Position numbers and translations under genes: made by a program | Notes under the pieces: model-generated | What the model was told of the DNA's origin: nothing | What the model saw: only the letters and a program-made list of their open reading frames with translations | Database searches by the model: none | Assembly: GCF_021502675.1 (NCBI RefSeq) | Contig: NZ_JAKFHA010000014.1 | Span: 106,748-170,747 of the forward strand | Direction: 5' to 3' | DNA from: Yinghuangia soli | GTDB taxonomy: Bacteria > Actinomycetota > Actinomycetes > Streptomycetales > Streptomycetaceae | DNA: 64,000 nucleotides | In this document: piece after piece, positions 8,484 through 27,832 of the stretch | How the letters are laid out: each line of letters opens with the position of its first letter | Position numbering within the stretch: the stretch's first letter is position 1

Positions 8484-8502
8484 CACCGCTGCCCCGCAAC
8501 GG

Positions 8503-8552: not shown

Positions 8553-8573
8553 TTTACCAGTGCTCCGTGGGGA

Positions 8574-10273: not shown

Positions 10274-10280
10274 GTGCGCC

Positions 10281-10346: not shown

Positions 10347-10361
10347 ACGACCACAGGCTTC

Positions 10362-10398: not shown

Positions 10399-10450
10399 CC
10401 GTTTCCCGGGTATGCGAGACACCGGTCCGCCCGACCCGAGGAGAACTCCC

Positions 10451-10756: not shown

Positions 10757-11248
10757 CGTGTCCTCAGGCCGCCGTCCGGCAGGCGTTTCCCGGGCACATC
10801 ACTCGAAAGGGGACGCCTGCCGACCCGACGGCGTAACCTCCCCGCGCCGACCGTCGTTGTGCCTGCTGACCAGCCGCCCACCGGCGGCCCTGGTCGCCGA
10901 GATCGTCGGCGCGATGAGGCATGTCGTATGCGGCTGCCGTGGGACCTCGCGCCGGCGCCGTGACCGGGACGCAGGGGACAGCAATCCGGTCACGACCCCG
11001 CCGGCGGCCGGTGTCGGGGACGCCCGATATCGGCCGCCGAGCCTCAGGCGGACACCACGGCGACGCGGTGAAAGGCACGCCTGCAGACGCCGGCATCGAC
11101 AATCGTCACGCTGCGCCTGGAGATCACACACTATCTGTAATCGGGGCGACTGCGAGCGGTACGGCACACCGGACCGGCCGGAAGCCCGCACGGGACCCCG
11201 GCCGACCTGCGCAAAGACCGATGCGGACATCGGCCCCGCGGCCGCGCC
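10757..11248. other. 492-base intergenic stretch, no gene recognised
   Basis: Reading frames here on both strands are Arg/Pro-rich, without family motifs or good ribosome sites, and codon-position GC bias is weak. The motif ACGCCTGC appears twice in near-repeat contexts around 10812 and 11077. I see no convincing gene, RNA or terminator beyond that. Confidence 0.5.
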
Positions 11249-12823
11249 TCAGCGCACGCCGAACGTCTTCATGATGCGCAGCGACAGCGTCAGCGACCGC
11301 GCCCACTGCTCGTCGGTCATGCCGAACGGCGCCGCGATCGGGATCACCCGCTGCGTGGCGACGGTCTGCGCCTCGGTGAACTTCGTGATGCCCTCGACGC
11401 CGTGCCGCCGCCCGAGGCCGGAGTCGCCCATGCCGCCCATCGGCGCCCCCGCGCTGCCGTACGACGCGGCGTAGCCCTCGTTGACGTTCACGCTGCCCGC
11501 GTGCAGCCGCCGCGCGAGGCGCGCGCCGCGCGCGGTGTCGCGGGTCCACACGCTCGCGTTGAGGCCGTACGCCGTGGCGTTGGCCCGCTCGACAACCTCG
11601 TCGACGTCGGTGAACGGGTAGACCGAGACGACCGGCCCGAAGGTCTCCTCGGCGCACACCGCCATGCCGGGAGTGACGTCCTGCAGCACGGTCGGCTCGT
11701 AGAACAGCGGGCCGATGTCGGGGCGCGCCCGGCCGCCGGTAAGCACCTTGGCGCCGTTCTCACGGGCCTGGTCGACGTGCCGGGAGACGTTCTCCAGCTG
11801 GCGGCGCGAGGTGAGCGAGCCCATGTCGGCGTCCCAGCCGTAGCCGGCCGCGAGGCGCATGCCCTCGACCCGGGCCAGGAAGCGCTCCAGGAACTGGTCG
11901 TGCACGTCGGCGTGCACGAACATGCGCTCGATCGACACGCACAGCTGCCCGGCCGACGAGAAGCACGCCCGCACGGCGCCTTCCGCGGCCCGGTCCAGGT
12001 CGGCGTCCGGGAGCACGATCATGGCGTTCTTGCCGCCGAGTTCGAGTGATGCGCCGACCAGCCGGGCGGCAGCCTGCTGCGCGACCTGCCGGCCGGTGCG
12101 GGTCGAGCCGGTGAAGCACACGTAGTCGGCGTGCGCGACGACCGCCGGGCCGACGACCGGGCCGTCGCCGATGACGATCTGCCACAGGTCCTCGGGCAGG
12201 CCGCACTCGGTGGCGACGTCGAGCGCCCACAGCGCGGTCAGCGCGGTCTGGGTGTCCGGCTTCATGACCACCGCGTTGCCCGCGATCATCGCCGGGATCG
12301 CGTCGCCGATGGACAGCGCCAGCGGGTAGTTCCACGGCGAGACCAGGCCTACGACCCCCTTGGGGTGCCGGACCTCGACGGCCTTGGTGAGCACCGGCAG
12401 CGCGCCGGCGCGGCGCCGGGTGCGCAGGTAGCCGCGGGCCCGGCGGCCGTAGTGCCGGCAGGTGAGCGCGACGTCGAGGACCTCTTCGAAGGCGTGCTTG
12501 CGGACCTTGCCGGTCTCGGTCTGGATGATGTCCAGGATCTCGTCCTGGCGGGCCAGCAGGCGGTCGTGGAAGCGCAGGAACACCGCGGCGCGCTCGCCGA
12601 CCGGGCGCTCGGCCCAGCGCTGCTGCGCGACCCGGGCCCGCTCGTACGCCGTCGCGACGTCCTCCGGGGTGGACTCCGGCAGGTCGGCCACCGCGGCGCC
12701 GGTGAACGGCGCGCGGGTGGTGACCCGGGTCGGGACGGCGCCGGCCACGACGCGCCGCACCAGGCGGTCGACCGGGAGCTCGGGGTGGGCAGCGGGGGCC
12801 GCGGCGCGGGCAATGTCCGTCAT
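11249..12823 (-). CDS. Succinate-semialdehyde dehydrogenase (NADP+ type)
   Basis: A 524-residue aldehyde dehydrogenase most like GabD2-type succinate-semialdehyde dehydrogenases of Actinobacteria. They oxidise succinic semialdehyde to succinate in the GABA shunt or a bypass of 2-oxoglutarate dehydrogenase. Landmarks are VVGLVSPWNYPLALSIGDAI (cofactor and oxyanion Asn), TGSTRTGRQVAQQ, the general-base LELGGKNAMIV and the catalytic Cys in SSAGQLCVSIER. The C-terminal part has EETFGPVVSVYPF. It is the last gene behind the minus-strand kinase group, 75 bases after the kinase stop, so partial co-transcription is possible. Substrate choice is by family likeness. Confidence 0.87.
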   Translation of the reverse strand: MTDIARAAAPAAHPELPVDRLVRRVVAGAVPTRVTTRAPFTGAAVADLPESTPEDVATAYERARVAQQRWAERPVGERAAVFLRFHDRLLARQDEILDIIQTETGKVRKHAFEEVLDVALTCRHYGRRARGYLRTRRRAGALPVLTKAVEVRHPKGVVGLVSPWNYPLALSIGDAIPAMIAGNAVVMKPDTQTALTALWALDVATECGLPEDLWQIVIGDGPVVGPAVVAHADYVCFTGSTRTGRQVAQQAAARLVGASLELGGKNAMIVLPDADLDRAAEGAVRACFSSAGQLCVSIERMFVHADVHDQFLERFLARVEGMRLAAGYGWDADMGSLTSRRQLENVSRHVDQARENGAKVLTGGRARPDIGPLFYEPTVLQDVTPGMAVCAEETFGPVVSVYPFTDVDEVVERANATAYGLNASVWTRDTARGARLARRLHAGSVNVNEGYAASYGSAGAPMGGMGDSGLGRRHGVEGITKFTEAQTVATQRVIPIAAPFGMTDEQWARSLTLSLRIMKTFGVR

Positions 12824-12898: not shown

Positions 12899-14944
12899 TC
12901 AGCCCTCGCGGAAGTTGGCGAGGACCGTGTCGAAGACCTTGCGGGAGCTCGACCAGTCGGGGTCGAACGAGGCGACATAGACCGAGAAGTCGGTGCCCTT
13001 GTCGGTCCGCATGCCCACGTCGATCGCGTGGCTGGGCTTGAGGTTGCCGCCCTGCGGGTCGAACGGGTTGCCGAGCCACGTGAACTCCCACACCGCGGCC
13101 TCCCAGCCGGGCCGGCCGATGGGGTACGAGGCGAGCTGCAGCGTGCGGTAGTCCTGCTTCTTCTTCTTGAAGTCCGCATCGATCGCGGTCAGGTTGTCCA
13201 GCGGGCGCACGCCGCCGTTGTCGATGCCGATCCGCAGGAACGTCTTGCTGCGCGGGTCGACGTAGTCGATCTGCGCGCCGCTCTGCGAGCGCGTCCAGCC
13301 GTTCGGCACGAACAGCGAGAAGCCGGCCGGGTCGCGGGTCCAGGTGTAGCCGGGCACCGGCGCGGGCGCACCGGTCGTCGCGGGCGGCGTGGTGGCACCG
13401 GGCGGCGGGACGATCGCGCTCGGGCCGCCGCTCGCGCTCGGCGAGCCGCTCGGCCGGTCGCCGGGCTGCCCGCTGACCTGCACACCGTCGGTGGCGGCGG
13501 CGTTCACCGGCGGATTCGCCTTGTCGTCGTCGCCGCCCCGCAGCACGAACGTGACCGCGACGCCGGCCGCGATCAGCGCGATGACCAGAGCCGTGATGCC
13601 GAGCGCCATCGGCTTGCGGGACGCCCGGGCGGGCGGCGCGGCCGGGCCCGATGCCTGCAGGGTGTGCGGACCGGTCGGGTACGGGCCCGCGGGCGCGGCG
13701 GGTCCCGCCGGGTAGCCCTGGCCGTACGTCGGGCCGTACCCCGCCGCGGGCCACGGCGTTCCGGCCGAGTGCGAACCGGGATGCGACCCGGGACCCGACC
13801 CCGGATTCGACCCTGGATTCGATCCCGGATACGTCCCCGCGTAGGACCCCGGTCCCGAGTCGGAGCCGGCCGAAGGACCGGTCACCGTGGGCGAGTTGCC
13901 GACCGCGAATGCGGCGCCGTGCACGGTGGCCGTACCCGCGCCCACGCCCGGCGCCATCCCGTGCGCCGACTCCGCAGCGGGTATGGAACCCGCTGGCGGC
14001 ACTGCCGAGTTGGCCTCGGTCGGCGGGACCGCTCCGCGGTGCGCCTGGGTCTGGTCGCCGCGCACGATCCCGGTCAGGAGGCGCTCGACCTCCTTGGCGG
14101 GCAGGCGCTGCGCCGGGTCCTTCTGCAGCAGGCCGTGGATCACCGGGAGCAGGACGCCCGCCCGGCGCGGCGGGTCGGGCTCTTCGAGCAGGATCGAGTT
14201 GAGCGTGCTGATCATCGTCGGCCGGTCGAAGGGGTTGCGCCCCTCGACCGCCATGTACATGACCAGGCCGAGCGACCACAGGTCGGCGGCGAGGTTCGGG
14301 CGCAGGCCCTGGGCCCGCTCCGGGGCCAGGAAGTTGGGCGAGCCGATGAGCATGCCGGTCGCGGTCAGCGTCTGCGCGCCGGTCTCGGTCGCGATGCCGA
14401 AGTCGGTGAGCACGACCCGGCCTTGCAGCGTCACCAGGATGTTGGCCGGTTTGACGTCCCGGTGCAGGACGCCTTTCTCCTCGGCGGCCATGAGCGCGCC
14501 GAGGACCTTGAGGCCGACCTCGGCGGCCTCGGCGGGCGCCAGCGTGCCGCGGTTCTTGAGCACGTCGGCAAGCGACTCGGCCTCGACGAGTTCCATGACG
14601 ATCCACGGGATGCCGCCGTCCTCGACGACGTCGTGGATGGTGACGACGTTCTCGTGGGTGATCCGCGCGGCGGTGCGCGCCTCGCGCAGCGTGCGCTGCT
14701 GCTGGATCTCGCGCTCTTCGTCGTCGAGGTGCTCGGGGAGCCGCAGTTCCTTGATCGCGACGTCCCGGTGCAGCATCTCGTCGACGGCCCGCCAGACCGT
14801 GCCCATGCCGCCGCGGCCGAGCACCCCGGCCAGCCGGTAGCGGCCCGCCACGATGCGTGCGGCACCGGCCGGACGCGCCGGCCCGCCCGCGTCCGCGCGT
14901 GCCGCATCCCCGGACACGCCGCCGGCCGGCCCGCCGTCCGCCAT
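12899..14944 (-). CDS. Membrane Ser/Thr protein kinase 1, with shared C-terminal WEFTW domain
   Basis: A 681-residue Hanks-type kinase. The kinase domain runs from about residue 33 to 300 with glycine loop GRGGMG (43-48), Lys65, HRDVKPAN (161-168) and DFG (181-183), so it should be active. A Pro/Gly/Ser-rich linker contains short PGSN/PGSH tandem repeats. One membrane helix (ALGITALVIALIAAGVAVTF, about 449-468) follows, then about 60 linker residues and a roughly 150-residue outer domain (about 529-681) with FSLFVPNGW and AVWEFTW. That end domain recurs in four neighbours. The next kinase starts about 215 bases upstream. It may belong to the kinase cluster linked to spore-wall synthesis in S. 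coelicolor. Confidence 0.93.
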   Translation of the reverse strand: MADGGPAGGVSGDAARADAGGPARPAGAARIVAGRYRLAGVLGRGGMGTVWRAVDEMLHRDVAIKELRLPEHLDDEEREIQQQRTLREARTAARITHENVVTIHDVVEDGGIPWIVMELVEAESLADVLKNRGTLAPAEAAEVGLKVLGALMAAEEKGVLHRDVKPANILVTLQGRVVLTDFGIATETGAQTLTATGMLIGSPNFLAPERAQGLRPNLAADLWSLGLVMYMAVEGRNPFDRPTMISTLNSILLEEPDPPRRAGVLLPVIHGLLQKDPAQRLPAKEVERLLTGIVRGDQTQAHRGAVPPTEANSAVPPAGSIPAAESAHGMAPGVGAGTATVHGAAFAVGNSPTVTGPSAGSDSGPGSYAGTYPGSNPGSNPGSGPGSHPGSHSAGTPWPAAGYGPTYGQGYPAGPAAPAGPYPTGPHTLQASGPAAPPARASRKPMALGITALVIALIAAGVAVTFVLRGGDDDKANPPVNAAATDGVQVSGQPGDRPSGSPSASGGPSAIVPPPGATTPPATTGAPAPVPGYTWTRDPAGFSLFVPNGWTRSQSGAQIDYVDPRSKTFLRIGIDNGGVRPLDNLTAIDADFKKKKQDYRTLQLASYPIGRPGWEAAVWEFTWLGNPFDPQGGNLKPSHAIDVGMRTDKGTDFSVYVASFDPDWSSSRKVFDTVLANFREG

Positions 14945-15159
14945 GATTTCCTCCCGCTGTGCCGGTGGTCCGGCCTCCCCCGCCGGGACTCCACCGGATG
15001 TGTGCCGTTAGCCCGGTCAGCCTAAAGCCTCCGGGGCCGCGCGACCGGCGCCCGCCCCCGTCCGGCCGCCCGCGCACGGCCGTTCCCGCGGCATCCGGGC
15101 AAGCCGGAGGCCCGGATGCGGCAGGAACGGTCCGCCTCGTATGTACGCGTCCGCCTCGG

Positions 15160-16863
15160 TCAGCCGGCGACCTCGGCCGCCGGGGCCACCACCACCGGTC
15201 CGCTGCTCGGCGGCGTGGTGGTGGGCGGCTTCGTCGTGGTCGGCTTGGTGGTCGTCGGCGCCGTCGTGGTCGGCTTGGTGGTCGTGTTGGTCGGCCGGTG
15301 CGTGGTCGTCGGACGCGTGGTCGGCGACGTCTTCTTCGTCGCCGGGGAGTCGTCCTTCGTCTCGGATCCGCCCGCCCCGGCATTGCCGTTCGAGTCGTCG
15401 GTCGCCGGGCTCAGCACGCCGCCCACACCCGCATCGGAGCTGTCGCCGGTGGCCCCGGCGCTGTTGCCGCTGTCGTTCCCGGTGCCGCCGCCTCCGCCGC
15501 CGTCCTTGTCCATCGCCGCCGGGATGGCCCAGATCGCCGCGGCCACCGCTGCCGCGGCCAGTCCGCCCATCAGGACGTACTTCGACCGCGAGCGCTGCCG
15601 CGGCGGGAAGGCCTCGCCGGTCATCCGCTGCGTACCGCCGGGGCCGACCGGCGCCTCGGCGCCGTGCATGGCCGGGCCCGGGAACGGCGGCGGGGTGTCC
15701 GGGTTGCGCGGGTGGCCGGCACCCGCGGTCCGCGTCTCGTCGGCCTGCTCGTGCGCCACCGGAACCCAGCCGGACGACTCGCCGGCCGCGCCGTACGCAC
15801 CCGCGCCCAGCGCCCCGGCCGCCGCACCCTCGCCCGCCGTGCGGGCGAAGCCGGGCCCCTGGGTGAGCCCGTGCGGTCCGCGCGGGTCCTCGACGGTGGC
15901 CTGGCCGCCGAACGACGAGGGCTCCGGCGGCGCCGGGATGCCCAGCGCCGCGGCGCCCGCGCCGGTGGCCAGTGCCGTCTCGGCGCTCGCGTGGCCGCCC
16001 GCCGCGAGGGCCTGCCCGGTGCCGTGCTGCTTCCCCTTCAGCGCAGCACCGAGCAGGAGTTCGGTCTCGGCCTCGTCGGGCCGGTCGTCCGGTTCCTTGC
16101 GCATGAGCGCGGCGATCGCCGGGCCGAGCGCGCCTGCGTACCGGGTGGCCGCAGGCTCGTCCTGCAGCACCGCGGTCAGCGTCTCGATGGCGCCGCCCCG
16201 GGCGAACGGGGAGCGCCCCTCGACCGCCTGGTAGAGCGTCACGCCCAGCGACCACAGGTCGGACGCGGCCCCGGGCCGCCGGCCCAGGACGCGCTCCGGC
16301 GCCAGGTATTCGGGCGAGCCGATCAGCATGCCGGTCGCGGTCAGCGTCGCGGAGCCGAGCACAGTGGCGATGCCGAAGTCGGTGAGCACGACCCGGCCGC
16401 CGCTGCCGATCAGGATGTTGCTGGGCTTCACGTCGCGGTGCAGCACGTCGGCATCGCGCGCCGCGCGCAGCGCGGACAGCACCTTGATGCCGATCTCGGC
16501 GGCCTCGGACGGGCCGAGCCGGCCCTCGTGCTCGATCACGTCGTCGAGCGAGCGGGCCCGCACCAACTCCATGACGATCCACGGGCGGCCGCCGTCCTCG
16601 ACGACGTCGTAGATGGTCACCACGTTCGGATGCACCACGCGTGCGGCCGCCCTGGCCTCGCGCATGGCGCGCTCGCGCCGGGTCTCCTGCTCCGCGGGGT
16701 CGAGGTCGTCCGGTATACGGACTTCCTTGACCGCCACCTCGCGGCGCAGCAGTTCGTCGACGGCGAGCCAGACCGTGCCCATCCCCCCGCGGCCCAGCGA
16801 TTCGCCGAGCCGGTACCTGCCATTGACCAGGCGGCTTTCGCGGCCGCCACTTGCCTCCGTCAC
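15160..16863 (-). CDS. Membrane Ser/Thr protein kinase 2, Thr/Pro-rich outer tail, no end domain
   Basis: A 567-residue Hanks-type kinase: GRGGMG at 24-29, Lys46, HRDVKPSN at 142-149, DFG at 162-164. A single membrane helix lies near residues 430-450. The outer part is about 117 residues of Gly/Ser then Thr/Pro-rich sequence with TTTKPTTT-like repeats and no folded domain, unlike the other five kinases here. Only about 215 bases separate its stop from the next gene, so the missing domain is not simply frameshifted nearby. GTG at 16863 is chosen over longer forms because GGGAGGG lies just upstream of it. Confidence 0.92.
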   Translation of the reverse strand: MTEASGGRESRLVNGRYRLGESLGRGGMGTVWLAVDELLRREVAVKEVRIPDDLDPAEQETRRERAMREARAAARVVHPNVVTIYDVVEDGGRPWIVMELVRARSLDDVIEHEGRLGPSEAAEIGIKVLSALRAARDADVLHRDVKPSNILIGSGGRVVLTDFGIATVLGSATLTATGMLIGSPEYLAPERVLGRRPGAASDLWSLGVTLYQAVEGRSPFARGGAIETLTAVLQDEPAATRYAGALGPAIAALMRKEPDDRPDEAETELLLGAALKGKQHGTGQALAAGGHASAETALATGAGAAALGIPAPPEPSSFGGQATVEDPRGPHGLTQGPGFARTAGEGAAAGALGAGAYGAAGESSGWVPVAHEQADETRTAGAGHPRNPDTPPPFPGPAMHGAEAPVGPGGTQRMTGEAFPPRQRSRSKYVLMGGLAAAAVAAAIWAIPAAMDKDGGGGGGTGNDSGNSAGATGDSSDAGVGGVLSPATDDSNGNAGAGGSETKDDSPATKKTSPTTRPTTTHRPTNTTTKPTTTAPTTTKPTTTKPPTTTPPSSGPVVVAPAAEVAG

Positions 16864-17007
16864 GGGTCCCTCCCCATCGGACCGTGCTGTACATCGTCCC
16901 CCCGAGACAACGTATGGAGGCCCATGCCCGTTCGGAGCTGCCGCAATCGGATCCGGACGTGCCCGTGACGGAACCGGCACAGTACTCGCCCGCATCGGGC
17001 GCCCTGA

Positions 17008-18849
17008 TCAACTACGGGGCGTGAAGGTGGACTTCGCCGCCTCGAAAACCGACCTTATGGTCGGTGTGCCGGCCTCCGGACCGGACACCCAGAAGTCGTA
17101 CGTAAGGCCGTTGGCGACGTACCGCAGGTTGACGGACCGGCGCAGCGTGCCCTGGTCGTTCCAGGTGAACTCCCAGATCCCGGCCGGGCCGCCGCCGAAC
17201 GTGGTCTTCTCCAGGCGCACCCGCGTGTACCCGGGATAGGTCGCGGTGGCCGAGCTGCCGCTGCCGTTCGCGTCCTGGGCGGCCAGGTCGGAGTACGGGT
17301 CGCCGGAGGCGTCGGCCGCGTTCATCCGCACGCCGAGGCGCATCGTGCCGTCCGGCGACCGGTAGAACACCCGGCCGCCCTCCGCGGAACGCTGCCAGCC
17401 GTCGAGCACCGCGACCCGGAAGCCGCCCGGGTCGTCGACGTAGTGGTAGCCGGCCGGGGCAGGGACCGGGGCCGAGGACGGCGGCGCGGACGTGGCCGGC
17501 GGGCCCGGCGGAGGTGCGGGCACCCCGGCGGTCGACGTCGCGGACGGACCGGGCTTCGACGTCGCGGACGGGCCGGTGCTCGGCGGCGCGGACGCGCCCG
17601 GTGCCGTCCCCGGGGCGCTCGTGGCGTTCGGCGGGGTCGTGGCCGATGCGGGCTTCGCGGCGCTTCCGCCGCCGTCGCGCCCGGCGACATACGCCCACAC
17701 CCCCGCGCCCGAGGCGACCAGGACCAGGGCGAGCACCGGCACGAGGACCCGCACGCGCCGGCTCGGCACGGGCAACGTGTCCGAGCCGGGCCCGAGTTCG
17801 CCGCCGGAGGAGCGCGGGTCCACCGCGTACAGCGGCGCGGACCAGTTGTCGGCCGTCGGCCATTCGGGCGTGTCGGGTGCCTGCGGGCCCACACGCGGCG
17901 GCGCGGCGGGCATCGGCGGGGGCGGCGGTATGGCCGCGGCCGGCGCGGCGCCGAGCTCGGTCTCGGGCACGGCTGCCGGCGGAGGTGGCAGAGGCGACGG
18001 AGGTACAGGCGCGGTCACCGCCGCAGCACCCGCGGCGGAGGACTGCGCCAGCAGCCGCAGTCCCTGGTCCGCGGTCAGCCGCAGCAGCGGGTCCACGGTG
18101 AGCAGCCCGGCCAGCACTTCGCCCAACTCGCCCGCATGCCGCGGCGGGTCGTACACGCCGTCCAACACGGCCTGCAGCGTGGCGAATTCGCCGTTGCGCC
18201 GGAACGGCGAGCGGCCTTCGAGCATCTCGTACAGCGTCGCGCCGAGCGACCACAGGTCCGACGCCGGTCCGGGGCGCATGCCCTGGGCGCGCTCCGGGGC
18301 CATGTATTCGAGCGTGCCGATGGTCGTGCCGGTGACCGTGATCGTCGACGAGCCGACCAGGGTCGCGATGCCGAAGTCGGTGAGCACCGCGCGCCCGTCG
18401 AGCGCCATCAGGACGTTGCCGGGCTTGATGTCGCGGTGCACCACGCCCGCGGCGTGCACGGCGGCGAGCGCCGCCAGCAGGCTGCGGGTGACGCGGGCCG
18501 CCTCGGAGACCGGCAGTCGGCCCTCGGAGAGGTCGTCGGCGAGCGTCCGGCCCGGCACCAGTTCCATGATGATCCAGGGGCGTTCGCCGTCCTCGACGAC
18601 GTCGTAGACGGCCACCACGCCGGGATGCGTCACGAGTGCGGCGGCCCGCACCTCGCGCATCGCCCGGGCCGCGCGCCGGGCGCGCTCGTCGTCCGGAAGG
18701 TCGTCCGGCACCCGGACTTCCTTGACCGCCACGGTCCGGTCCAGCACGGTGTCGTACGCGCGCCACACCGTGCCCATGCCGCCCCGGCCCAGCATGTCCG
18801 CCAGCCGGTAGCGCCCGGCCACCATGCGCTCCCCGGTCGGATCCGTCAC
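17008..18849 (-). CDS. Membrane Ser/Thr protein kinase 3, with shared C-terminal WEFTW domain
   Basis: A 613-residue kinase. GRGGMG is at 21-26, Lys43, HRDIKPGN at 138-145 and DFG at 158-160. The linker is Pro/Ala-rich. One membrane helix (VLVPVLALVLVASGAGVWAY, about 364-383) precedes a second Pro/Thr/Ala linker and the outer domain (about 463-613) with FRVAVLDGWQR, FYRSPDGTMRLGVR, ATYPGYTRVRL and IWEFTWNDQ. The GTG start at 18849 has GGGGAG upstream. It lies between kinases 2 and 4 with gaps of about 140 bases on each side; one gap holds a short tandem repeat. Confidence 0.93.
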   Translation of the reverse strand: MTDPTGERMVAGRYRLADMLGRGGMGTVWRAYDTVLDRTVAVKEVRVPDDLPDDERARRAARAMREVRAAALVTHPGVVAVYDVVEDGERPWIIMELVPGRTLADDLSEGRLPVSEAARVTRSLLAALAAVHAAGVVHRDIKPGNVLMALDGRAVLTDFGIATLVGSSTITVTGTTIGTLEYMAPERAQGMRPGPASDLWSLGATLYEMLEGRSPFRRNGEFATLQAVLDGVYDPPRHAGELGEVLAGLLTVDPLLRLTADQGLRLLAQSSAAGAAAVTAPVPPSPLPPPPAAVPETELGAAPAAAIPPPPPMPAAPPRVGPQAPDTPEWPTADNWSAPLYAVDPRSSGGELGPGSDTLPVPSRRVRVLVPVLALVLVASGAGVWAYVAGRDGGGSAAKPASATTPPNATSAPGTAPGASAPPSTGPSATSKPGPSATSTAGVPAPPPGPPATSAPPSSAPVPAPAGYHYVDDPGGFRVAVLDGWQRSAEGGRVFYRSPDGTMRLGVRMNAADASGDPYSDLAAQDANGSGSSATATYPGYTRVRLEKTTFGGGPAGIWEFTWNDQGTLRRSVNLRYVANGLTYDFWVSGPEAGTPTIRSVFEAAKSTFTPRS

Positions 18850-18888
18850 CCGACTCCCCGCTCCCGCCCGATGTGCAGCTCGTCCGCT

Positions 18889-18934
18889 TGCCTGCTTGCC
18901 CGCGTGCCTGCCTGCCCGCGTGCCTGCCCGCCCC
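18889..18934. repeat. 16-base tandem repeat between kinases 3 and 4
   Basis: Two near-identical 16-base units starting TGCCTGC (18889-18904 and 18905-18920) are followed by a partial third (18921-18934). It is intergenic, without coding signal. Confidence 0.75.
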
Positions 18935-18986
18935 TGTCACGGCCACCGTACCCACCGGGCGGCCGCGGCCCTCCGCGCGGCCGGGT

Positions 18987-21239
18987 TCACCGCCTGATGG
19001 CCATGTTCTCCTTCGCGTGGTCGAAGTACGCGGCGGCGGTGGGCCACAGCTCCTCGCGGCACCGGACGGTCATCCAGTACCGCACGCCGTCCCCGGTGCG
19101 CACGACAAGGTCCTTGCCGTGGAACGCGGCCCCCTCCGGGCCGCGCCACACGTACTCCCACTCGGCGGCGTCGTGCCCGCGGTAGTCCATGGACTCCAGC
19201 TCCACGCGCCGGTACCCCTCGCTGTCGCGGTAGTCGCGCGATGCCAGCGTGCCGTGCTCGCGGTGCAGCACGGACTCCTCCGGCGGCATCACGATGCCGC
19301 GGTCCACACTGACGGTCACCGAGATCAGCCGGTCCGGGTCGTACACCGCGAGGCCGCTGTCGGTGGTCGTGCAGCTCCAGCCCTCCGGCACGGGCAGCGC
19401 GAACCCGAGCCCCGACCCGGTGCGCAGCCGGCGCAGCACCGCGCCGTCGATCAGCGGACCGAGCGCCAGGCAGCCGCCGACCAGACCGAGCACCCACACC
19501 AAATCCGGGTCGATGTCCCGGAGTTCGAGGGCGCCGCCGCCGATCACGCCGATCAGCATCGCGGCCGGCACCGAGCGCGAGAGTCTGCGGTGCGGCAGCA
19601 CGAGCCATACGCCGAGCGCCGCGGCGAGCAGGGAGATCGTGTACATCCCGGCCCAGGAACCGTAGTTCGCGAGCCACTTGGCCATCGCGGCGCTGATGAT
19701 CGCGACGATCACCAGCACGGTCGCCCAGTGCCGGATGTACCAGCGCGGCCAGCGCCGGTAGCGCGCCCGGAACCCGCCGCCGCGGCGGGCCCGCGCACGG
19801 TCGCGGCGGCCGAGCTTGCCGGACCCGGCGGACGAGCCGGGGTCGCCGGCCCGGGTTCCGGCGCCGGTGGCGGTGGCGGTGGCTGCGCCGCTGCCGGATG
19901 CGGAGCCGGCGCCCCGGCCGAAGCGCTTGCGGGCCCGTTTGCCGGTGTCCGCGCCGGAGCCGCCGGGCGGCACGGTCTCGCCCGCGCGCGTGCCCTGCAC
20001 ACGCAAGTTGGTCTGGGTGACGCCGGTGGGCGGCGCCGCGACGTCCTCGGCGGGGGCTGCGGCTGACTTCTCGGCTCCCCGGCCTGTGCCTGTGGCCCCC
20101 GCGGAACCGGCGCCCGCGGAGTCGCGATCGGCGGCAGGCCTACGGGCCCCCGCGCTCGTACCGGTGGCGGCGCCGGCGCCGGTGCTTGCGGCCGCCCCCA
20201 GCGCTCCGCGTCCGGTCCGGCCGGTCGCGTGCCCGCGCGCGCCGCTCCCGGCGAGGACACCGGATCCGCGGCTGCCCGGGTCGCCGACGTAGTGCCGTCC
20301 GCCGCCCGACGCCCCCGCGGCGGTCCCGGAGCCGCCGTGCCAGGCATGCCGGCGGGCCGCCGCGGGGCGGGCCCGTCCGGAAAACGTCCGGGCCGGCCCC
20401 GGCGGCGCGGGCGCCGCCTCCGCGGCCTCGACCAGCCGCTCACGCAGCAGCACCGCGTCGGCGCGCGCGGTCGGGTCCTGGACCAGCACGGACCGCAGCA
20501 CGGGCATCAGGGCGCCGGCGTGCTCCAGTTCCGGGAACCGCGCGGCAGCGACCGCGGCAAGGGTGGCGGCGTGCGTGGCGCGCCGGTACGCCGGGCGGCC
20601 CTCGACCGCCTCGTACAGCGTCACGCCGAGCGACCACAGGTCCGCGGGCGGGCCGGGCATCTGGCCGTCCACCTGCTCGGGCGCGAGGTACTCCGGCGAG
20701 CCGACGAGCGCGCCGAGCTGGGTGAGGGTGGCGCTGTCCTCCACGGAGGCGACGCCGAAGTCGGTGAGCACCACGCGCCCGTTGCGGGCCAGCAGGACGT
20801 TGGCGGGCTTCACGTCGCGGTGCAGGACCCCCGCGTCGTGCGCCGCCTCCAGCGCGGAGAGCAGCCGCAGGCCCATCTCGGCGACCTGCCCGGGGGCCAT
20901 CGGGCCGTCCTTCTCGATCTCCTGCGCGAGCGAGAGGCCGCGGACGAGCTCCATGACGATCCACGGCCGGCCGTCCTCGGCGACCACGTCGAAGATGGTC
21001 ACGACGTTCGGGTGGTCGATCCGCGCGGCGGCGCGCGCCTCGCGGAGCATGCGGGCGCACAGAGTGCCGCGCTCTTCGTCGTCCACGTGGCCCGGCACCC
21101 GGAGTTCCTTGACCGCGACCTGCCGGTCGAGCACTTCGTCGAGGGCGCTCCAGACGGTGCCCATGCCGCCGCGCCCCAGGCGTTCCCGCAGCCGGTACCG
21201 GCCCGCGAGCAGGCGCCCGTCGGACTCCGGGTCGGTCAT
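18987..21239 (-). CDS. Polytopic Ser/Thr protein kinase 4, end domain behind about four membrane helices
   Basis: The largest of the set at 750 residues. The kinase core shows GRGGMG at 22-27, Lys44, HRDVKPAN at 140-147 and DFG at 160-162. A long Ala/Gly/Arg-rich low-complexity linker follows. Near residues 505-605 there are about four hydrophobic segments (WATVLVIVAIISAAMAKWLA, MYTISLLAAALGVWLVL, AAMLIGVIGGGALEL, LVWVLGLVGGCLALG) rather than one. The end domain (about 608-750) keeps LPVPEGW and AEWEYVW and is related to that of the other kinases. With four helices it would face the cytoplasm. It is the first kinase of the minus-strand group. Confidence 0.92.
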   Translation of the reverse strand: MTDPESDGRLLAGRYRLRERLGRGGMGTVWSALDEVLDRQVAVKELRVPGHVDDEERGTLCARMLREARAAARIDHPNVVTIFDVVAEDGRPWIVMELVRGLSLAQEIEKDGPMAPGQVAEMGLRLLSALEAAHDAGVLHRDVKPANVLLARNGRVVLTDFGVASVEDSATLTQLGALVGSPEYLAPEQVDGQMPGPPADLWSLGVTLYEAVEGRPAYRRATHAATLAAVAAARFPELEHAGALMPVLRSVLVQDPTARADAVLLRERLVEAAEAAPAPPGPARTFSGRARPAAARRHAWHGGSGTAAGASGGGRHYVGDPGSRGSGVLAGSGARGHATGRTGRGALGAAASTGAGAATGTSAGARRPAADRDSAGAGSAGATGTGRGAEKSAAAPAEDVAAPPTGVTQTNLRVQGTRAGETVPPGGSGADTGKRARKRFGRGAGSASGSGAATATATGAGTRAGDPGSSAGSGKLGRRDRARARRGGGFRARYRRWPRWYIRHWATVLVIVAIISAAMAKWLANYGSWAGMYTISLLAAALGVWLVLPHRRLSRSVPAAMLIGVIGGGALELRDIDPDLVWVLGLVGGCLALGPLIDGAVLRRLRTGSGLGFALPVPEGWSCTTTDSGLAVYDPDRLISVTVSVDRGIVMPPEESVLHREHGTLASRDYRDSEGYRRVELESMDYRGHDAAEWEYVWRGPEGAAFHGKDLVVRTGDGVRYWMTVRCREELWPTAAAYFDHAKENMAIRR

Positions 21240-21416
21240 GCGCGTCTCCTGTGCTGGGGTTCGCGGCCCTTCCAGTCAACCACCCCGGCCCGGGGTTGGG
21301 CGGGTCGTCCGGCCGTCATTTCCCGCCAAATGGCCTGACACTTCGTCAGATCAGGGCATCGCGGGACAACGGCCGGGACGACGCGCGGGGCAGTCGGGCG
21401 GCAGTCGGGCGGCCGG

Positions 21417-23126
21417 TCAGGCGAGCGGGACGACCTCCTCGGCGCCCATCCGGACCGCATCCGCGGTCCGGTCGTCCGGCTGCTCCTGCGACTCGCGCTC
21501 GGCCTCCACCCGCTTGAGGTAGTAGTCGACCTCGCGGCGCACCTGCTCGTCGGTCCAGCCCAGCACCGGGGCCATCAGCCGCGCGCACTCCTCGGCGACC
21601 CGCACACCGCGGTCGAACGTCTCGATCGAGATGCGGGTACGCCGGTCCAGCACGTCGTCCAGGTGCAGCGCGCCCTCGTGGGTGCAGGCGTAGACGACCT
21701 CGGCGCGCAGGTAGTCGTCGGCGCCATCCAGCGGCTGGCCGAGCCCGGCGTCCGCATCCACGAGGGCCAGCACCTCGTCGACCAGCGACCCGTAGCGGTT
21801 GAGCAGGTGCTCCACCCGGACGACGTGCAGGCCGCTGCGCGCGGCGATGGCCGCCCGGGCGTTCCAGAGCGCGTGGTAGCCCTCCGCGCCGGCCAGCGGG
21901 ACCGTGTCGGTGCAGCTCGCCGCGACCTTGCGGTCCAGGCCGTGCACCGCGGCGTCGACCGCGTCGGCGGCCATCACCCGGTACGTCGTGTACTTGCCGC
22001 CGGCCACCACCACCAGGCCGGGCACCGGGTGCGCGACCGTGTGCTCGCGGGACAGCTGGCTGGTCGCGTCCGACTCGCCGCGCAGCAGCGGGCGCAGCCC
22101 GGCGTACACGCCCTCGACGTCCTCGCGGCTGAGCGGCACCGCGAGCACCGCGTTCACCCGTTCGAGCAGGTACTCGATGTCGGTGCGGCTGGCCGCCGGA
22201 TGCGTCTTGTCCAGGTCCCAGTCGGTGTCCGTGGTCCCGATGATCCAGTGCCGGCCCCACGGGATCACGAACAGCACCGACTTCTCGGTGCGCAGGATCA
22301 GCCCGGTGGACGAATGGATGCGGTCCTTCGGCACCACCAGGTGGATGCCCTTGGACGCGCGCACGTGGAACTGCCCGCGCTCGCCGACCATCGCCTGGGT
22401 CTCGTCGGTCCACACGCCGGTCGCGTTGACGACCTGCCGGGCCCGGATGTCGTACGTGCGGTCCTGTTCGAGGTCGCGCACCTGCACCCCGACCACGCGC
22501 TCGCCCTCGCGCAGGAAGCCGGTCACCGAGGCCCGGGAGGCGACGTGCGCGCCGTAGCCGGCCGCGGTGCGCACCAGGGTCATGGTGTGCCGCGCGTCGT
22601 CCACCTGCGCGTCGTAGTACTGCACCGCGCCGACCAGCGCGTCCTTGCGCAGCGCGGGCGCCAGGCGCAGCGCGCGGCGGCGCGACAGGTGCCGGTGCGC
22701 GGGCAGGCCGCGGGCGTAGCCGGACGACACGCCCATGGTGTCGTACAGCGCCACCCCCGAGCCGACGTACAGCCGCTCCCAGCCGTGGTGCTGCAGCGGG
22801 TACAGGAACGGCACCGGCTTGACCAGGTGCGGAGCCAGTCGCTGGACCATCAGGCCGCGCTCCCGCAGGGCCTCCCGGACCAGCGCGAAGTCCAGCATCT
22901 CCAGGTACCGCAGCCCGCCGTGGATCAGCTTGCTGGACCGGCTGGAGGTGCCCGACGCCCAGTCCTTGGCCTCGACCAGGCCCACGCTCAGGCCGCGGGT
23001 GACCGCGTCCAGGGCCGTCCCCGCGCCGACCACGCCGCCGCCGACCACGACGACGTCCAACTCCCGCTCGGCCATCCGGTCCAGTGCGTCTTCGCGTGCC
23101 CGCAACCCCAACGCCGTGGTCCTCAA
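21417..23126 (-). CDS. glpD: Aerobic glycerol-3-phosphate dehydrogenase
   Basis: A 569-residue FAD enzyme that oxidises sn-glycerol-3-phosphate to dihydroxyacetone phosphate and passes electrons to the quinone pool at the membrane. The FAD loop VVVGGGVVGAGTALDA lies near residues 26-41, followed by SSRSSKLIHGGLRYLE, HLVVPKDRIHSS, IPWGRHWIIGTTDTDWD and GGKYTTYRVMA, all typical of GlpD. The likely start is TTG at 23126, kept because MRTTALG-type openings occur in Streptomyces GlpD; ATG at 23075 is an alternative. It sits between the two kinase groups, the same place as in S. coelicolor as I recall. Confidence 0.96.
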   Translation of the reverse strand: MRTTALGLRAREDALDRMAERELDVVVVGGGVVGAGTALDAVTRGLSVGLVEAKDWASGTSSRSSKLIHGGLRYLEMLDFALVREALRERGLMVQRLAPHLVKPVPFLYPLQHHGWERLYVGSGVALYDTMGVSSGYARGLPAHRHLSRRRALRLAPALRKDALVGAVQYYDAQVDDARHTMTLVRTAAGYGAHVASRASVTGFLREGERVVGVQVRDLEQDRTYDIRARQVVNATGVWTDETQAMVGERGQFHVRASKGIHLVVPKDRIHSSTGLILRTEKSVLFVIPWGRHWIIGTTDTDWDLDKTHPAASRTDIEYLLERVNAVLAVPLSREDVEGVYAGLRPLLRGESDATSQLSREHTVAHPVPGLVVVAGGKYTTYRVMAADAVDAAVHGLDRKVAASCTDTVPLAGAEGYHALWNARAAIAARSGLHVVRVEHLLNRYGSLVDEVLALVDADAGLGQPLDGADDYLRAEVVYACTHEGALHLDDVLDRRTRISIETFDRGVRVAEECARLMAPVLGWTDEQVRREVDYYLKRVEAERESQEQPDDRTADAVRMGAEEVVPLA

Positions 23127-23371
23127 CGCGCCGTCACCCGCTCCCGTTCGTGCCTGCCCGGTCCCTCCTGATCATCACCTGTGCACCGGCCCTCGGCGCG
23201 CAGGCGACACGGATCGAGCCCCGCACGGCAGCCGAGCGGAGCCCTGTCCCCGGTCCTCTATACCCCTGCCGGGTGAACTTCCCGTGTGCGGCCGCGTACC
23301 GTCGGAACACGGTCCGCCACTCGGCGTACCGCGCCGATCCCGAAGGCGCCTTCCGCGAGAGCGAGGACCGG

Positions 23372-24262
23372 ATGCCGACGACGCCCGCCGCCGCACCGCT
23401 GATCGTGTGCGACCTCGACGGGACGCTGCTGCGCCCCGACGCGACCGCATCGGACTACACCCGTGCCGCACTCGGCCGCCTGATCGCGGCCGGCACCGCG
23501 CTGACCATCGCCACCGCACGCGGCGTACCGTCCATCCGCGCCCTGCTCGCGGGCGTCGAACTGCCGCTTCCGGTCATCGAGTTGAACGGTGCCTACATCT
23601 CCGATCCGGGCACCGGGGCGCACCTCGACCACCATACGCTCGACGCCGCGACCGCGAGCGCCGTGGTGGACTGCCTGGTTGCCGCGGGCATCGAGCCCAC
23701 CCTCACCACCTGGGACGGGACCGCCGACCACGTGGACTTCGGCGCGCTGTCGAACGAGTCGGCACGCTGGTTCCACGACGAGAAGGCCGCGGCCGGCGAC
23801 CCCCGACTCCGGTACTGCACCGACTTCGCCGCGCTGGCCCGCACCTCGACCGTGGCGCTCATCCGCCTCGCGGTCCCGCACGACGACGCCGAGCGCACCG
23901 CCAAGCTCCTGGACGGCGTCTGCGGCGACCGCGCGACGGTCCTCGGCATCCGCAACGACTACATCCCGGGCTGGACCGAGTTCAGCGTGCACGGCCCCAC
24001 CGCCGACAAGGGCAGCGCGCTGCGCGGCCTGCGGGCCCGGATCGGCCACACCGGGCCGCTCGTGGTGTGCGGCGACCACCTCAACGACCTGCCGATGTTC
24101 GACGCCGCGGACGGCCCGGACGACCGGCGCGTGGCCCCCGCGACCGCCCACCCGGACGTCCTGGCCCGGGCGACGGATGTGGCCGGGCCGAACCACGAGG
24201 ACGGAATCGCCCGTTTTCTCCTGGCCTCTTTCCTCGGCAGCGGAGAAGACCTGGCATCGTGA
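23372..24262 (+). CDS. HAD-superfamily Cof-type phosphatase
   Basis: A 296-residue HAD hydrolase of the Cof/YidA type, which removes phosphate from small metabolites such as sugar phosphates or flavin nucleotides. Motif I is CDLDGTLLRPD near residue 13, motif II TIATARG, motif III the ADKGSALRGL lysine, and motif IV CGDHLNDLPMF near residue 230. The ATG has AGGA just upstream. Its last codons overlap the start of a 20-base element (24248-24267) repeated in front of the second downstream kinase. Substrate is not predictable. Confidence 0.88.
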   Translation: MPTTPAAAPLIVCDLDGTLLRPDATASDYTRAALGRLIAAGTALTIATARGVPSIRALLAGVELPLPVIELNGAYISDPGTGAHLDHHTLDAATASAVVDCLVAAGIEPTLTTWDGTADHVDFGALSNESARWFHDEKAAAGDPRLRYCTDFAALARTSTVALIRLAVPHDDAERTAKLLDGVCGDRATVLGIRNDYIPGWTEFSVHGPTADKGSALRGLRARIGHTGPLVVCGDHLNDLPMFDAADGPDDRRVAPATAHPDVLARATDVAGPNHEDGIARFLLASFLGSGEDLAS

Positions 24263-24267
24263 CCGTG
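24248..24267 (+). repeat. 20-base element, copy 1, upstream of kinase 5
   Basis: The 20 bases beginning GACCTGGCATCG are identical to 25986-26005. This copy spans the HAD stop codon and lies 106 bases before the kinase 5 ATG; copy 2 lies 50 bases before the kinase 6 ATG. Confidence 0.8.
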
Positions 24268-24353
24268 CGAGGGCACGGTGCGCAGCAGCCGCGGGGATGT
24301 GCCGGACGCGTCGGGATCTGTCGGTACTTGTCGGGAGAGGCACGGAGAAGCAC

Positions 24354-25955
24354 ATGGACGACGTACCGGCGGGATCGGGCAGACGCGTCTGCGACGGCCG
24401 GTTCGAGCTGCGCGAACGCCTCGGCAGCGGGGCGATGGGCACCGTGTGGCGCGCCCTGGACACCACGCTGCACCGCGAGGTCGCACTCAAGGAGGTCCGC
24501 GCCCCCGAGGGCGCGTCCGCCGAGGAGGCCGAGACCATCCGGGCCCGCGCGCTGCGCGAGGCCCGGGCCCTCGCCCGGCTGCGCAACCCGCACGTGGTGG
24601 CGATCCACCAGGTCGCCGACGACGAGCCGTTCCCGTGGATCGTCATGGAGCTGGTCCCGGGCCGCACCCTCGCCGCGGTGCTCGCCGACGGCCCGCTGGA
24701 CCCGCGGACCGCGGCCGGGCTCGGCGCGGACCTCCTCGACGCCCTCACCGCCGCGCACGGCGCGGGCGTGCTGCACCGCGACGTGAAGCCCGCGAACGTG
24801 CTGGTCCGGCCGGACGGACGGGCGGTCCTGGTGGACTTCGGCATCGCCGCGGTCGAGGGCACCGCGGCGGTCACCACCACCGGGTCGTTCATCGGCACCC
24901 TGGAGTACGCGGCCCCGGAGCGCACCGCGGGCGGCGAGCCCTCGCCGGCCACCGACCTGTGGTCGCTGGGCGTCCTGCTCTGCACCGCCGTCGAAGGCCG
25001 CAACCCGTTCCGCCGGGCCAACGAGTGGGCCACGCTCGGCGCGATCGTCAACGAACCGCACCCGCCGCCGCAGCACGCGGGCGCCCTCACCCCGGTCATC
25101 GACGCGCTGCTCACCAAGGACCCGGCGCAGCGCCCGGACGCCGCGACCGTCGCCGCGGGGCTGGCGGCGGCCAGGCAGCAGGCCGATGTCCCGACGCTGC
25201 ACGCCGCCCTGAGCACCGCGCCCGCGGCACACGCCTCGACCACCGGGCCCGAACCGTCCACCGACGCCGACCTGCCCACGGTCCCGGCCCGGCCCGCACC
25301 CGCCGCCCCGTCGCCGTCCGGCCGGGCACCGCGCCGCAAGCGCGCGCTGCTCGTCGGCGCCCTGGTCGCGGCGCTCCTCGCCGGCGGCGGCGTCGCGGCG
25401 TGGACGCTCACGGACGGAAGCGGCGACGGCGGCAAGAAGACCCCCCAGGCCGGCCCGACGACCCCGGCCGCCCCGGGCAGCACCGCGCCCTCGGCCCCCG
25501 CGCTGCCGGCCGGCTACGAACTGCGCACCCACGGCACGGGCTTCCAGGTCGCGGTCCCGGCCGGGTGGACGGAGGCCGCCGACAAGTCGGGCAGCCCCGT
25601 CTACGAATCCCCGGACCGCACCGCACGCCTCACGGTCCGCGTCCTGCCCGGCAACAGCGCCGACCCGTACGCGGAGCAGCAGAAGTCCCAGCGCGAGACC
25701 GCCGCTTCGCCGTCGTACCCCGGCTACGTCAACGTCGGCCTGACCCAGGGCATCCAGTCCGGGGGCACCTCGGCGACCTGGGAGTACACGTACACCCCCG
25801 CGGACGGCAAACGCCGTATCAAAGACGTCCGCTGGCGCATCGGCACGACCGGCTACAACCTGTGGATGTCCGCCCCGGACGGCAGGTCCTGGCCGCAGCA
25901 CGCGCAGCACCTGGACGTCGCCCTGGCGCACTTCAAGGACACCGCCCGGCGCTGA
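24354..25955 (+). CDS. Membrane Ser/Thr protein kinase 5, with shared C-terminal WEYTY domain
   Basis: A 533-residue kinase with GSGAMG at 24-29, Lys46, HRDVKPAN at 141-148 and DFG at 161-163. The glycine loop (GSGAMG) and LVDFG differ from the GRGGMG/LTDFG of kinases 1-4, so this is a second subfamily shared with kinase 6. One membrane helix (ALLVGALVAALLAGGGVAAW, about 332-351) leads to a short linker and the outer domain (about 385-533) with FQVAVPAGW, PSYPGYVNVGL and TWEYTY. Kinase 6 follows after 80 bases and is nearly the same protein. Both start from ATG near a GGAGAGG-type site. Confidence 0.93.
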   Translation: MDDVPAGSGRRVCDGRFELRERLGSGAMGTVWRALDTTLHREVALKEVRAPEGASAEEAETIRARALREARALARLRNPHVVAIHQVADDEPFPWIVMELVPGRTLAAVLADGPLDPRTAAGLGADLLDALTAAHGAGVLHRDVKPANVLVRPDGRAVLVDFGIAAVEGTAAVTTTGSFIGTLEYAAPERTAGGEPSPATDLWSLGVLLCTAVEGRNPFRRANEWATLGAIVNEPHPPPQHAGALTPVIDALLTKDPAQRPDAATVAAGLAAARQQADVPTLHAALSTAPAAHASTTGPEPSTDADLPTVPARPAPAAPSPSGRAPRRKRALLVGALVAALLAGGGVAAWTLTDGSGDGGKKTPQAGPTTPAAPGSTAPSAPALPAGYELRTHGTGFQVAVPAGWTEAADKSGSPVYESPDRTARLTVRVLPGNSADPYAEQQKSQRETAASPSYPGYVNVGLTQGIQSGGTSATWEYTYTPADGKRRIKDVRWRIGTTGYNLWMSAPDGRSWPQHAQHLDVALAHFKDTARR

Positions 25956-25985
25956 ACCCGGGGCGGCCGCACCGCCGGCGGCCCG

Positions 25986-26005
25986 GACCTGGCATCGTGA
26001 CCGTG
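25986..26005 (+). repeat. 20-base element, copy 2, upstream of kinase 6
   Basis: Identical to 24248-24267. It sits in the 80-base gap between kinases 5 and 6, which suggests that the gene pair arose by tandem duplication with its upstream control region. Confidence 0.8.
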
Positions 26006-26035
26006 GGACAGTCGTGCGGCCTTGGGGAGAGGCAC

Positions 26036-27832
26036 ATGTACGAGGAAGCGCCAGGGCCCGGCAGACGCGTCTGCGACGGCCGGTTCGAACTGCGCGAACG
26101 CCTCGGCAGCGGGGCCATGGGCACGGTGTGGCGGGCCGTCGACACCATGCTGCACCGCGAGGTCGCCCTCAAAGAGGTCCGCGCGCCGCTGGACGCCTCC
26201 GCCGAAGAAGCCGCGGTCATGCACGCCCGCGCGCTGCGCGAGGCCCGCGCCCTCGCCCGGCTGCGCAACCCGCACGTGGTGACGGTCCACCAGGTGGTGG
26301 ACGAAGAACCGTTCCCGTGGATCGTCATGGAACTCGTGCCGGGCCGCACCCTCGCGGCCGTACTCGCCGCGGGCCCGCTGCCCCCGCACACCGCGGCCGC
26401 GATCGGTGCCGACATCCTCGACGCACTGGCCAACGCACACGCGGCCGGTGTCCTGCACCGCGACGTCAAACCCGCGAACGTCCTGATCCAGCCGGACGGC
26501 CGGGCCGTGCTCGTCGACTTCGGCATCGCCGCCGTCGAAGGCGCGTCGTCGGTCACCGCGACCGGCTCTTTCATCGGCACTCTCGAGTACCTCGCCCCCG
26601 AACGCGCCGCCGGCCTGCAGCCCACCGCGGCGACCGACCTGTGGTCGCTCGGCGTGCTGCTGTACGTCGCGGTCGAAGGACGCAGCCCCTTCCGGCGTGC
26701 CAACCAGTGGGCCGTCATATCCGCGATCGTCAACGAGCCGCACGCGCCCGCGACCCAGGCCGGGCCGCTCGCCGGGCTGATCGACGCCCTGCTCGCCAAG
26801 GACCCGGCAGCCCGACCGGACGCCGCAGCGGTCGCCCGCGCGCTCGACGCCGCCAAACAGCCTGGCCCTGCTCCCGGCGCTGCTCCCGGCCCGGCCGCCG
26901 ACCCCGGCCCGCCCGGAGCCTCGGCTGTGGCGAACGCTCCGACCACCCTGAACGCCGCGGCCGGTCCGCCCGCCCCGCCGATACCGCCCGCGGCCCCGGA
27001 CCTCTCCACGGTCACCTCGGGACCGCCGCCGCGCCCCGCCTCGGCTCCGCGTATCCCGGCACCGGCACCGGTAGTGCCAGTGGTACCGGCGCCGCCGGGA
27101 CGAAGACGTACGCGCAACGTCGTCGTCGCCATCGCGGCCGCCGTCCTGCTCGTCGGCGGCGGTGTCGCCGGAACGTTGGTGCTCACCTCCGGCGGCAACG
27201 GCTCCGAGGGCCGGAAGACCGGCGCCGCGGAACCCCCGTCGGCATCCACCACCGCCCCGGCGAACAGCCCCGCTCCCGGCCCCGGCGTGACGACCGGCCC
27301 ACCGCCCGCAACCGCCTCGACCACGCCGGCCGGCACTCCCGCGCCCGCCACCACTCCCCCGGTGTCGACGCCTCCCGCAGGGCCGCCGACCGGCTACGAA
27401 CTCCGCACCCACAGCGCCGGATTCACCGTCGCCGTACCCAAGGGCTGGAAGGAGACCCGGGACAAGTCCGGCAACCCGGCCTACGAGTCGCCGGACGGCA
27501 GTTCCCGCCTCGTGGTGCGCGTCCTGCGCGGCGACACGGCCGACCCCTACGCGGAGCAACTCCGGTCCGCGAACGAGACGCGCGCGTCGGCGTCGTACCC
27601 GGGCTACCGGCAACTCGCCCTGAACCAAGGCACCCGGGACGGCGGCCCATCGGCCACCTGGGAGTACACGTACACGGCTCCCGAGGGCAGTCGCCACCTC
27701 AAGGACATCCGCTGGCGCGTCGGCACGACGAGCTACAACCTCTGGATAGCCGCCCCCGACGGCCCCGCCTGGCCGCAGTACGCCGAGCAACTCGACATCG
27801 CCTTGGCCCACTTCCAGGACACCCGCGCCTGA
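26036..27832 (+). CDS. Membrane Ser/Thr protein kinase 6, with shared C-terminal WEYTY domain
   Basis: A 598-residue kinase and close paralogue of kinase 5: both share VCDGRFELRERLGSGAMG and REVALKEVRAP at the same positions. HRDVKPAN (141-148) and DFG are intact. The linkers on both sides of the membrane helix (VVVAIAAAVLLVGGGVAGTL, about 363-382) are longer and rich in Pro/Ala/Thr. The outer domain (about 451-598) has FTVAVPKGWK, ASYPGYRQLAL and TWEYTY. I infer that kinases 5 and 6 share signal type and possibly substrates. Downstream is a 477-base stretch without genes. Confidence 0.93.
   Translation: MYEEAPGPGRRVCDGRFELRERLGSGAMGTVWRAVDTMLHREVALKEVRAPLDASAEEAAVMHARALREARALARLRNPHVVTVHQVVDEEPFPWIVMELVPGRTLAAVLAAGPLPPHTAAAIGADILDALANAHAAGVLHRDVKPANVLIQPDGRAVLVDFGIAAVEGASSVTATGSFIGTLEYLAPERAAGLQPTAATDLWSLGVLLYVAVEGRSPFRRANQWAVISAIVNEPHAPATQAGPLAGLIDALLAKDPAARPDAAAVARALDAAKQPGPAPGAAPGPAADPGPPGASAVANAPTTLNAAAGPPAPPIPPAAPDLSTVTSGPPPRPASAPRIPAPAPVVPVVPAPPGRRRTRNVVVAIAAAVLLVGGGVAGTLVLTSGGNGSEGRKTGAAEPPSASTTAPANSPAPGPGVTTGPPPATASTTPAGTPAPATTPPVSTPPAGPPTGYELRTHSAGFTVAVPKGWKETRDKSGNPAYESPDGSSRLVVRVLRGDTADPYAEQLRSANETRASASYPGYRQLALNQGTRDGGPSATWEYTYTAPEGSRHLKDIRWRVGTTSYNLWIAAPDGPAWPQYAEQLDIALAHFQDTRA

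Follow-up and report, generated by a model that had tools for sequence, protein, structure and literature searches.

The closest described counterpart of the locus considered here, an island of six Hanks-type kinase frames (K1 to K6) at positions 12899-27832 of a 64,000-nucleotide stretch of the Yinghuangia soli genome (positions 106,748 to 170,747 of contig NZ_JAKFHA010000014.1; hereafter the window), is the Streptomyces coelicolor cluster SCO4775-4779 (pkaH, SCO4776, pkaD, pkaI and pkaJ). According to the report on that cluster, each of the five genes is transcribed on its own, deletion of all five yields dead, misshapen spores and germinating spores that are sensitive to vancomycin, and PkaI phosphorylates MreC and PBP2 in Escherichia coli (PMC4416010). 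An extra copy of any member but pkaI, SCO4776 included, causes a similar spore defect, which the authors ascribe to excess kinase activity (PMC4416010). The link to the spore wall is restated in two other papers (PMC9739823; PMC9600765).

A second comparison is with the PASTA kinases (PknB/Stk1; model NF033483), which share with most of the window kinases a layout of kinase, transmembrane (TM) helix and outside domain, and whose model is matched by the window kinases in its kinase part. Unlike PASTA kinases, the window kinases lie far under the NF033483 cut-off (213.7-244 bits against 450), and a Pfam search of all six at E ≤ 1 brought up no PASTA family, in line with the first-pass annotation of the window, which had been made from the sequence without database searches; an identity as PASTA kinases was therefore dropped. 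Domains of the PsbP/MOG1-like type have been described in secretion, immunity and BREX proteins, and not in these kinases, in the parts of the relevant papers that are accessible (PMC3482391; PMC12839542), and the literature searched, outside which most subscription journals lie, yielded no report of a PsbP-type domain in a Ser/Thr kinase.

In the reading favoured here, with moderate confidence, the island is a lineage-expanded array of membrane-bound Hanks-type kinases whose common C-terminal PsbP/Mog1p module would dock to protein partners or the wall and thereby steer phosphorylation in the envelope.

A shared C-terminal domain with a predicted PsbP/Mog1p fold

All six window kinases retain the glycine loop, the VAxK lysine and the HRD, DFG and APE motifs and score above the Pkinase cut-off, so that at the level of sequence motifs they are intact, as first annotated. 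Six such genes in 15 kb, K1-K4 on one strand and K5-K6 on the other, are far from chance, because the Pkinase profile matches just 57 places in the 9.7 Mb assembly (a few genes being matched twice).

Five of the six (K1, K3, K4, K5 and K6) end in one common domain, a claim of the first-pass annotation that profile searches bear out. Leave-one-out profiles recover the omitted domain of K1, K3 and K4 at 8.8e-11, 1.4e-23 and 2.4e-18, respectively, and a profile built without both K5 and K6 recovers K6 at 2.9e-20 and K5 at 1.5e-17; the six leave-one-out searches of 996 window frames, half of them shuffled, gave no other match at E ≤ 10. The motifs listed earlier are also present: the VPxGW-like strand reads VPNGW, VLDGW, VPEGW, VPAGW and VPKGW in the five domains, the WE(F/Y)T(W/Y)-like core reads WEFTW, WEFTW, WEYVW, WEYTY and WEYTY, and the YPGY segment is confined to K3, K5 and K6. 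A search of the Y. soli genome itself with the five-domain profile (E ≤ 1) gives six matches in all: those of the island and a single further one, in another kinase gene on contig C9.

Two of the five end domains were modelled, that of K6 and that of K4 together with its membrane part. The AlphaFold model of the K6 domain has a mean pLDDT of 95.7 (70-row alignment), and its best Foldseek match in the PDB is the cyanobacterial PsbP 2xb3 (E 2.4e-9). The 48 matches with E ≤ 0.001 are headed by 18 PsbP or PsbP-like chains of chloroplasts and cyanobacteria. Mog1p, Tsi3, MTC28, EagT6, LpqN, DcrB, Apa, SciW and others come after these, and several matches were, judging by their PDB titles, solved in complex with a protein partner. 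PsbP is the best match of the K4 model too, and it ranks first, weakly, in a sequence-only profile search (E 0.002). Additionally, of the 70 aligned family members, 24 are matched by the Pfam family PsbP (PF01789) with E-values up to 0.1, the best being 4.5e-9; LpqN matches six and DcrB two. It counts against this assignment that all five window domains go unrecognised by PF01789, even at a threshold of E ≤ 10. Models and Foldseek searches point to the PsbP/Mog1p/DUF1795 superfamily, to which the end domain is predicted to belong, as had been guessed at the outset.

With members of this superfamily (PsbP, Mog1p, LpqN, MTC28, Apa, DcrB, EagT6 and SciW) the window domains have in common the predicted fold and the conserved P-x-GW part. 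As the latter is also present in the PsbP alignment, this shared core marks the fold and is uninformative about the ligand. Unlike those proteins, the window domains are fused to kinases via a TM helix, and the structural matches are 10-19% identical. One further resemblance is to TIGR03931 (type VII secretion-associated Rv3446c, C-terminal), which matches the linker and part of the K5 domain at 29.8 bits, under its cut-off of 47.6 bits; all of its matches in this genome are low-scoring (best 34.3 bits), and the putative link to type VII secretion is weak.

The exception among the six is K2. Where the others have the end domain, it carries a Thr-rich tail (15160-15519, minus strand), in which 27 of some 119 residues are Thr and 15 are Pro. 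K2 was considered as a broken copy of the common architecture, an idea dropped because its four orthologues (L035, L036, L037 and L064) likewise lack the domain; the Thr-rich tail would instead replace it. The same tail may be a candidate for O-glycosylation outside the cell.

Membrane topology of the kinases

In K1, K3, K5 and K6 a single hydrophobic segment is followed by a linker of 37-80 residues rich in Pro, Thr, Ser and Ala, an arrangement that probably places the end domain beyond the membrane, outside the cell. Instead of docking proteins, the end domains could genuinely sense ligands, each one recognising a particular small molecule or fragment of the wall, for which the outside placement and the long linkers in these four kinases speak. 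PASTA domains, which bind muropeptides, provide an analogy, and the faster divergence of end domains than of kinases, by a factor of 1.2 to 4.2 across the nine active-kinase groups compared, is what changing ligands would predict. However, the nearest folds are mostly protein-binding or of unknown function, and K4 would have to sense from the inside; the sensor alternative is accordingly considered unlikely.

The K4 model (piece P0001) contains four helices, at residues 17-43, 47-65, 74-91 and 98-122. In all five members of the K4 group, the loops on the predicted inside carry 8-9, 3 and 3-7 Lys or Arg residues, against 0-1 on the outside. Their gaps of 6-9 residues between the last TM helix and the domain are the five shortest among 120 proteins (the next is 12 and the median of the others 47), and each of the five domains contains at least one cysteine, whereas 86 of the 115 other domains have none. 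Because of this combination of modelled helices, positive-inside loops, short gaps and cysteines, the K4 end domain is probably cytoplasmic. Three observations weigh against such an inversion: the pLDDT of the TM part is modest (47-74 by blocks), plain hydropathy gives three segments over the threshold, and the ratio of domain to kinase divergence does not set K4 apart (1.23, against 1.26 for K3), for which reason the ratio was dropped as proof of an inside domain. With three or five membrane passes, K4 would keep its end domain outside like the others, which the hydropathy and the undistinctive ratio would allow; the four helices of the model and the charges, linkers and cysteines of the whole group speak against it and make it quite improbable. 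The description of these proteins as receptors thus fits K1, K3, K5 and K6, with their one TM helix and long linker, and does not fit K4. That the receptors respond to related signals, as first suggested, is possible.

Synteny and evolution of the array

The block of glpD, kinases and the gene for succinic semialdehyde dehydrogenase (SSADH) is syntenic in relatives across the Streptomycetaceae, the location between glpD and SSADH being seen in the window and in the Streptomycetaceae loci and presumably shared by S. coelicolor itself. Thirty-nine of the loci considered stem from a single pattern scan (A2), which was no census. Like SCO4775-4779, the island is a tandem kinase array, and the five-gene clusters of the Streptomyces type adjoin glpD and encode kinases with the same end domain; wherever the fetched stretch extends far enough, SSADH forms their opposite flank. 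Equating these clusters with SCO4775-4779 rests on gene number and order, not on a comparison with the S. coelicolor sequence.

The kinases themselves follow a different pattern. In a kinase-domain tree of 118 rows, K1, K2, K3 and K4 each fall into a well supported group of five, drawn from three Yinghuangia and two Embleya-type genomes, and these groups stand apart from the Streptomyces-type groups, with no one-to-one orthology. The suggested synteny stands with regard to a Streptomyces-type cluster, which in turn agrees with the spore-wall cluster in gene number and order; one-to-one orthologues are lacking, and the spore-wall role is therefore not simply transferable. The island further differs from clusters of the SCO4775-4779 type in its additional genes K5 and K6, in the four predicted TM helices of K4, and in that Yinghuangia and Embleya lack the pseudokinase described below.

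K5 and K6 pair together in the tree. Among 41 genomes searched at E ≤ 1e-10, the nearest relatives of the K6 domain other than K5 are those of K4 (37% identity) and K3 (36%) in its own genome, so that by sequence the two genes K5 and K6 stand alone in this set, without close relatives. A stretch of about 20 identical bases, GACCTGGCATCGTGACCGTG, precedes both genes and may be part of the promoter of each.

Distances between kinases agree with those between end domains (Mantel r 0.77, 86 proteins, 0 of 999 permutations), and both parts were thus mostly inherited as a unit. For this comparison and for the tree, L063, L066 and L073 were dropped as duplicates of L035, L038 and L041, and a score over 300 was required, so that pseudokinases and partial kinases lie outside; the tree also excludes L053.

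A pseudokinase in related blocks

Among the fetched loci there are 24 degenerate kinases, in which HRD is changed to HRN or HGN and DFG is absent, with L.GL or L.GM instead; the VAIK lysine is replaced by Arg or His in the 18 in which the stretch was recognised. This count leaves out L038 and L041 (duplicates), the loci below L035, and a degenerate kinase of L049 that lacks the HGN/HRN motif searched for. The end domain is kept in 20 of the 24; L078 is cut by the contig end, and those at L040:7536, L042:8642 and L048:8777 terminate in a TM helix without the domain. In another gene of L049, kinase and end domain lie in different frames.

In blocks with both flanks found, the pseudokinase is present in 19 of 19 outside Yinghuangia and Embleya (18 with the domain, L048 without) and in none of the four complete Yinghuangia/Embleya blocks, the window included. 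The pseudokinase piece is 91-94% identical in two Streptomyces-type genomes, against at most 44% in five genomes of the Yinghuangia/Embleya type. Counted from glpD, the pseudokinase gene comes second in all eight Streptomyces-type clusters (L044, L077 and L102-L107; the genus label is inferred from L077) and third in clusters of the Streptantibioticus type. L044 and L103-L105 show the five-gene order published for SCO4775-4779 (PMC4416010), and some add a kinase before SSADH. Because the second gene from glpD in clusters with this order is the pseudokinase, SCO4776 is probably, by position, this pseudokinase; no paper describing it as one was found in the literature searched. Across the same six genomes, the end domain of the pseudokinase is more conserved (0.69) than those of the first (0.59) and third (0.56) genes. 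The end domain of the PkaI type is, however, as conserved as that of the pseudokinase (0.73).

Occurrence of the end domain outside the island

Of 25 close relatives, 17 have a match to the domain profile. In a draw of 198 genomes across the phylum, at least 34 have one; the true number may be higher, since at most 20 candidates were scored in each genome. In 20 regions, hand-picked to include short frames and thus not a random sample, the end domain lies in a kinase gene in 12 and without a kinase in eight, as one-TM or lipoprotein-like proteins; three more kinase-free copies occur in L052 and L053. The module is therefore not exclusive to kinases.

The stand-alone relatives take several forms. 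The proteins of L127:3314-4198, L128:2688-3923, L129:2183-3181 and L052:8810-9754 consist of a short N-terminal part (with an RWD...QW motif in two of them), one TM helix, a linker and the end domain, and those of L122, L123, L124 and L126 are secreted or lipoprotein-like, with a common NPPGDIPD-type lead-in ahead of the domain. In L053 (6605-16685), two membrane-anchored relatives (7802-8557 and 10716-11552, both plus strand) lie among four opposite-strand kinase genes, as if sensor and kinase had been split into separate genes; the one kinase scanned there (8600-10882, minus strand) has a PQQ-type beta-propeller part.

Proposed role of the end domain

In the docking model favoured above, the end domain would bind envelope protein partners or wall material, and docking would gather or separate the kinases, such that phosphorylation of envelope-building proteins tracks the state of the wall. 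The paralogues would retain the fold and vary its surface, each for a different partner, with the linkers setting the reach. In K4, the four-helix membrane part would return the domain to the inside, pressed to the membrane, where the kinase would read the inner face. In most relatives, the catalytically dead member with the same domain may act as a co-receptor or decoy that buffers or couples the others. One published observation is difficult to accommodate: the interacting part of PkaI in the two-hybrid assay, given as 257-357/380 (PMC4416010), would correspond in the PkaI-like proteins considered here to the end of the kinase and the TM part, ahead of the end domain, although such an assay is blind to contacts outside the cell. 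A chiefly passive role of the end domain, as an anchor in wall or membrane or as a dimer piece that holds the kinases in place without any signal being read, is highly unlikely, for although strong conservation is confined to the fold core and the P/T-rich linkers could thread the wall, the K4 domain, predicted inside, could not anchor to the wall, and the pseudokinase retains the domain despite its lost catalysis.

A bolder extension of the docking model is possible but doubtful. The Streptomycetaceae locus would then encode a co-evolved PsbP-type kinase network in which the end domain, and not catalysis, is the shared currency, a conserved dead SCO4776-type receptor competes or pairs with the live kinases through this domain, and K4, with its domain on the cytoplasmic side, substitutes for it in Yinghuangia and Embleya. 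If true, this would explain how the spore wall is upset by an extra copy of several members, the dead one included.

Gene content of the island

The genes for a GlpD-like enzyme and a HAD phosphatase lie between the kinases, as had been annotated, and the coordinates of these and the other features are collected in Table 1.

Table 1. Features of the kinase island and its flanks (window coordinates)
Feature	Position	Strand	Remarks
SSADH	11249..12823	-	Second conserved flank of the block
K1	12899..14944	-	Kinase joined to the end domain by one TM helix (about 13541-13597) and a P-rich linker
K1 end domain	12902..13351	-	Predicted PsbP/Mog1p-like
K2	15160..16995	-	Kinase, one TM helix, Thr-rich tail; translation more likely begins at a GTG near 16863 than at the frame start
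K3	17008..18849	-	Kinase joined to the end domain by one TM helix (about 17692-17748) and a P-rich linker
K3 end domain	17011..17454	-	
K4	18987..21239	-	A long stretch rich in Ala, Gly and Arg and four predicted TM helices separate the kinase from the end domain, which is probably cytoplasmic
K4 TM helices (four, predicted)	19428..19745	-	From structure model (modest pLDDT) and loop charges
K4 end domain	18990..19436	-	
GlpD-like glycerol-3-phosphate dehydrogenase	21417..23126	-	Conserved flank of the block
Cof-type HAD hydrolase frame	23084..24262	+	True start later; first about 100 codons overlap the glpD start
Duplicated stretch before K5	24251..24267 (within 24235-24270)	+	
K5	24354..25955	+	Kinase joined to the end domain by one TM helix (about 25344-25400) and a short linker
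K5 end domain	25503..25952	+	
Duplicated stretch before K6	about 25989 (within 25973-26008)	+	
K6	26036..27832	+	Kinase joined to the end domain by one TM helix (about 27119-27175) and a linker; tandem duplicate of K5
K6 end domain	27389..27829	+	Modelled

Implications

To our knowledge, Streptomyces and its kin contain dozens of receptor-like kinases without known inputs. Were SCO4776 catalytically dead, excess kinase activity would not be the whole explanation of the defect caused by extra copies, and the published reading of the spore phenotype would need a second look. In combination, a named, predicted fold, the probable membrane inversion of K4 and a probably dead member of the cluster make the question of what these kinases sense a concretely testable one.

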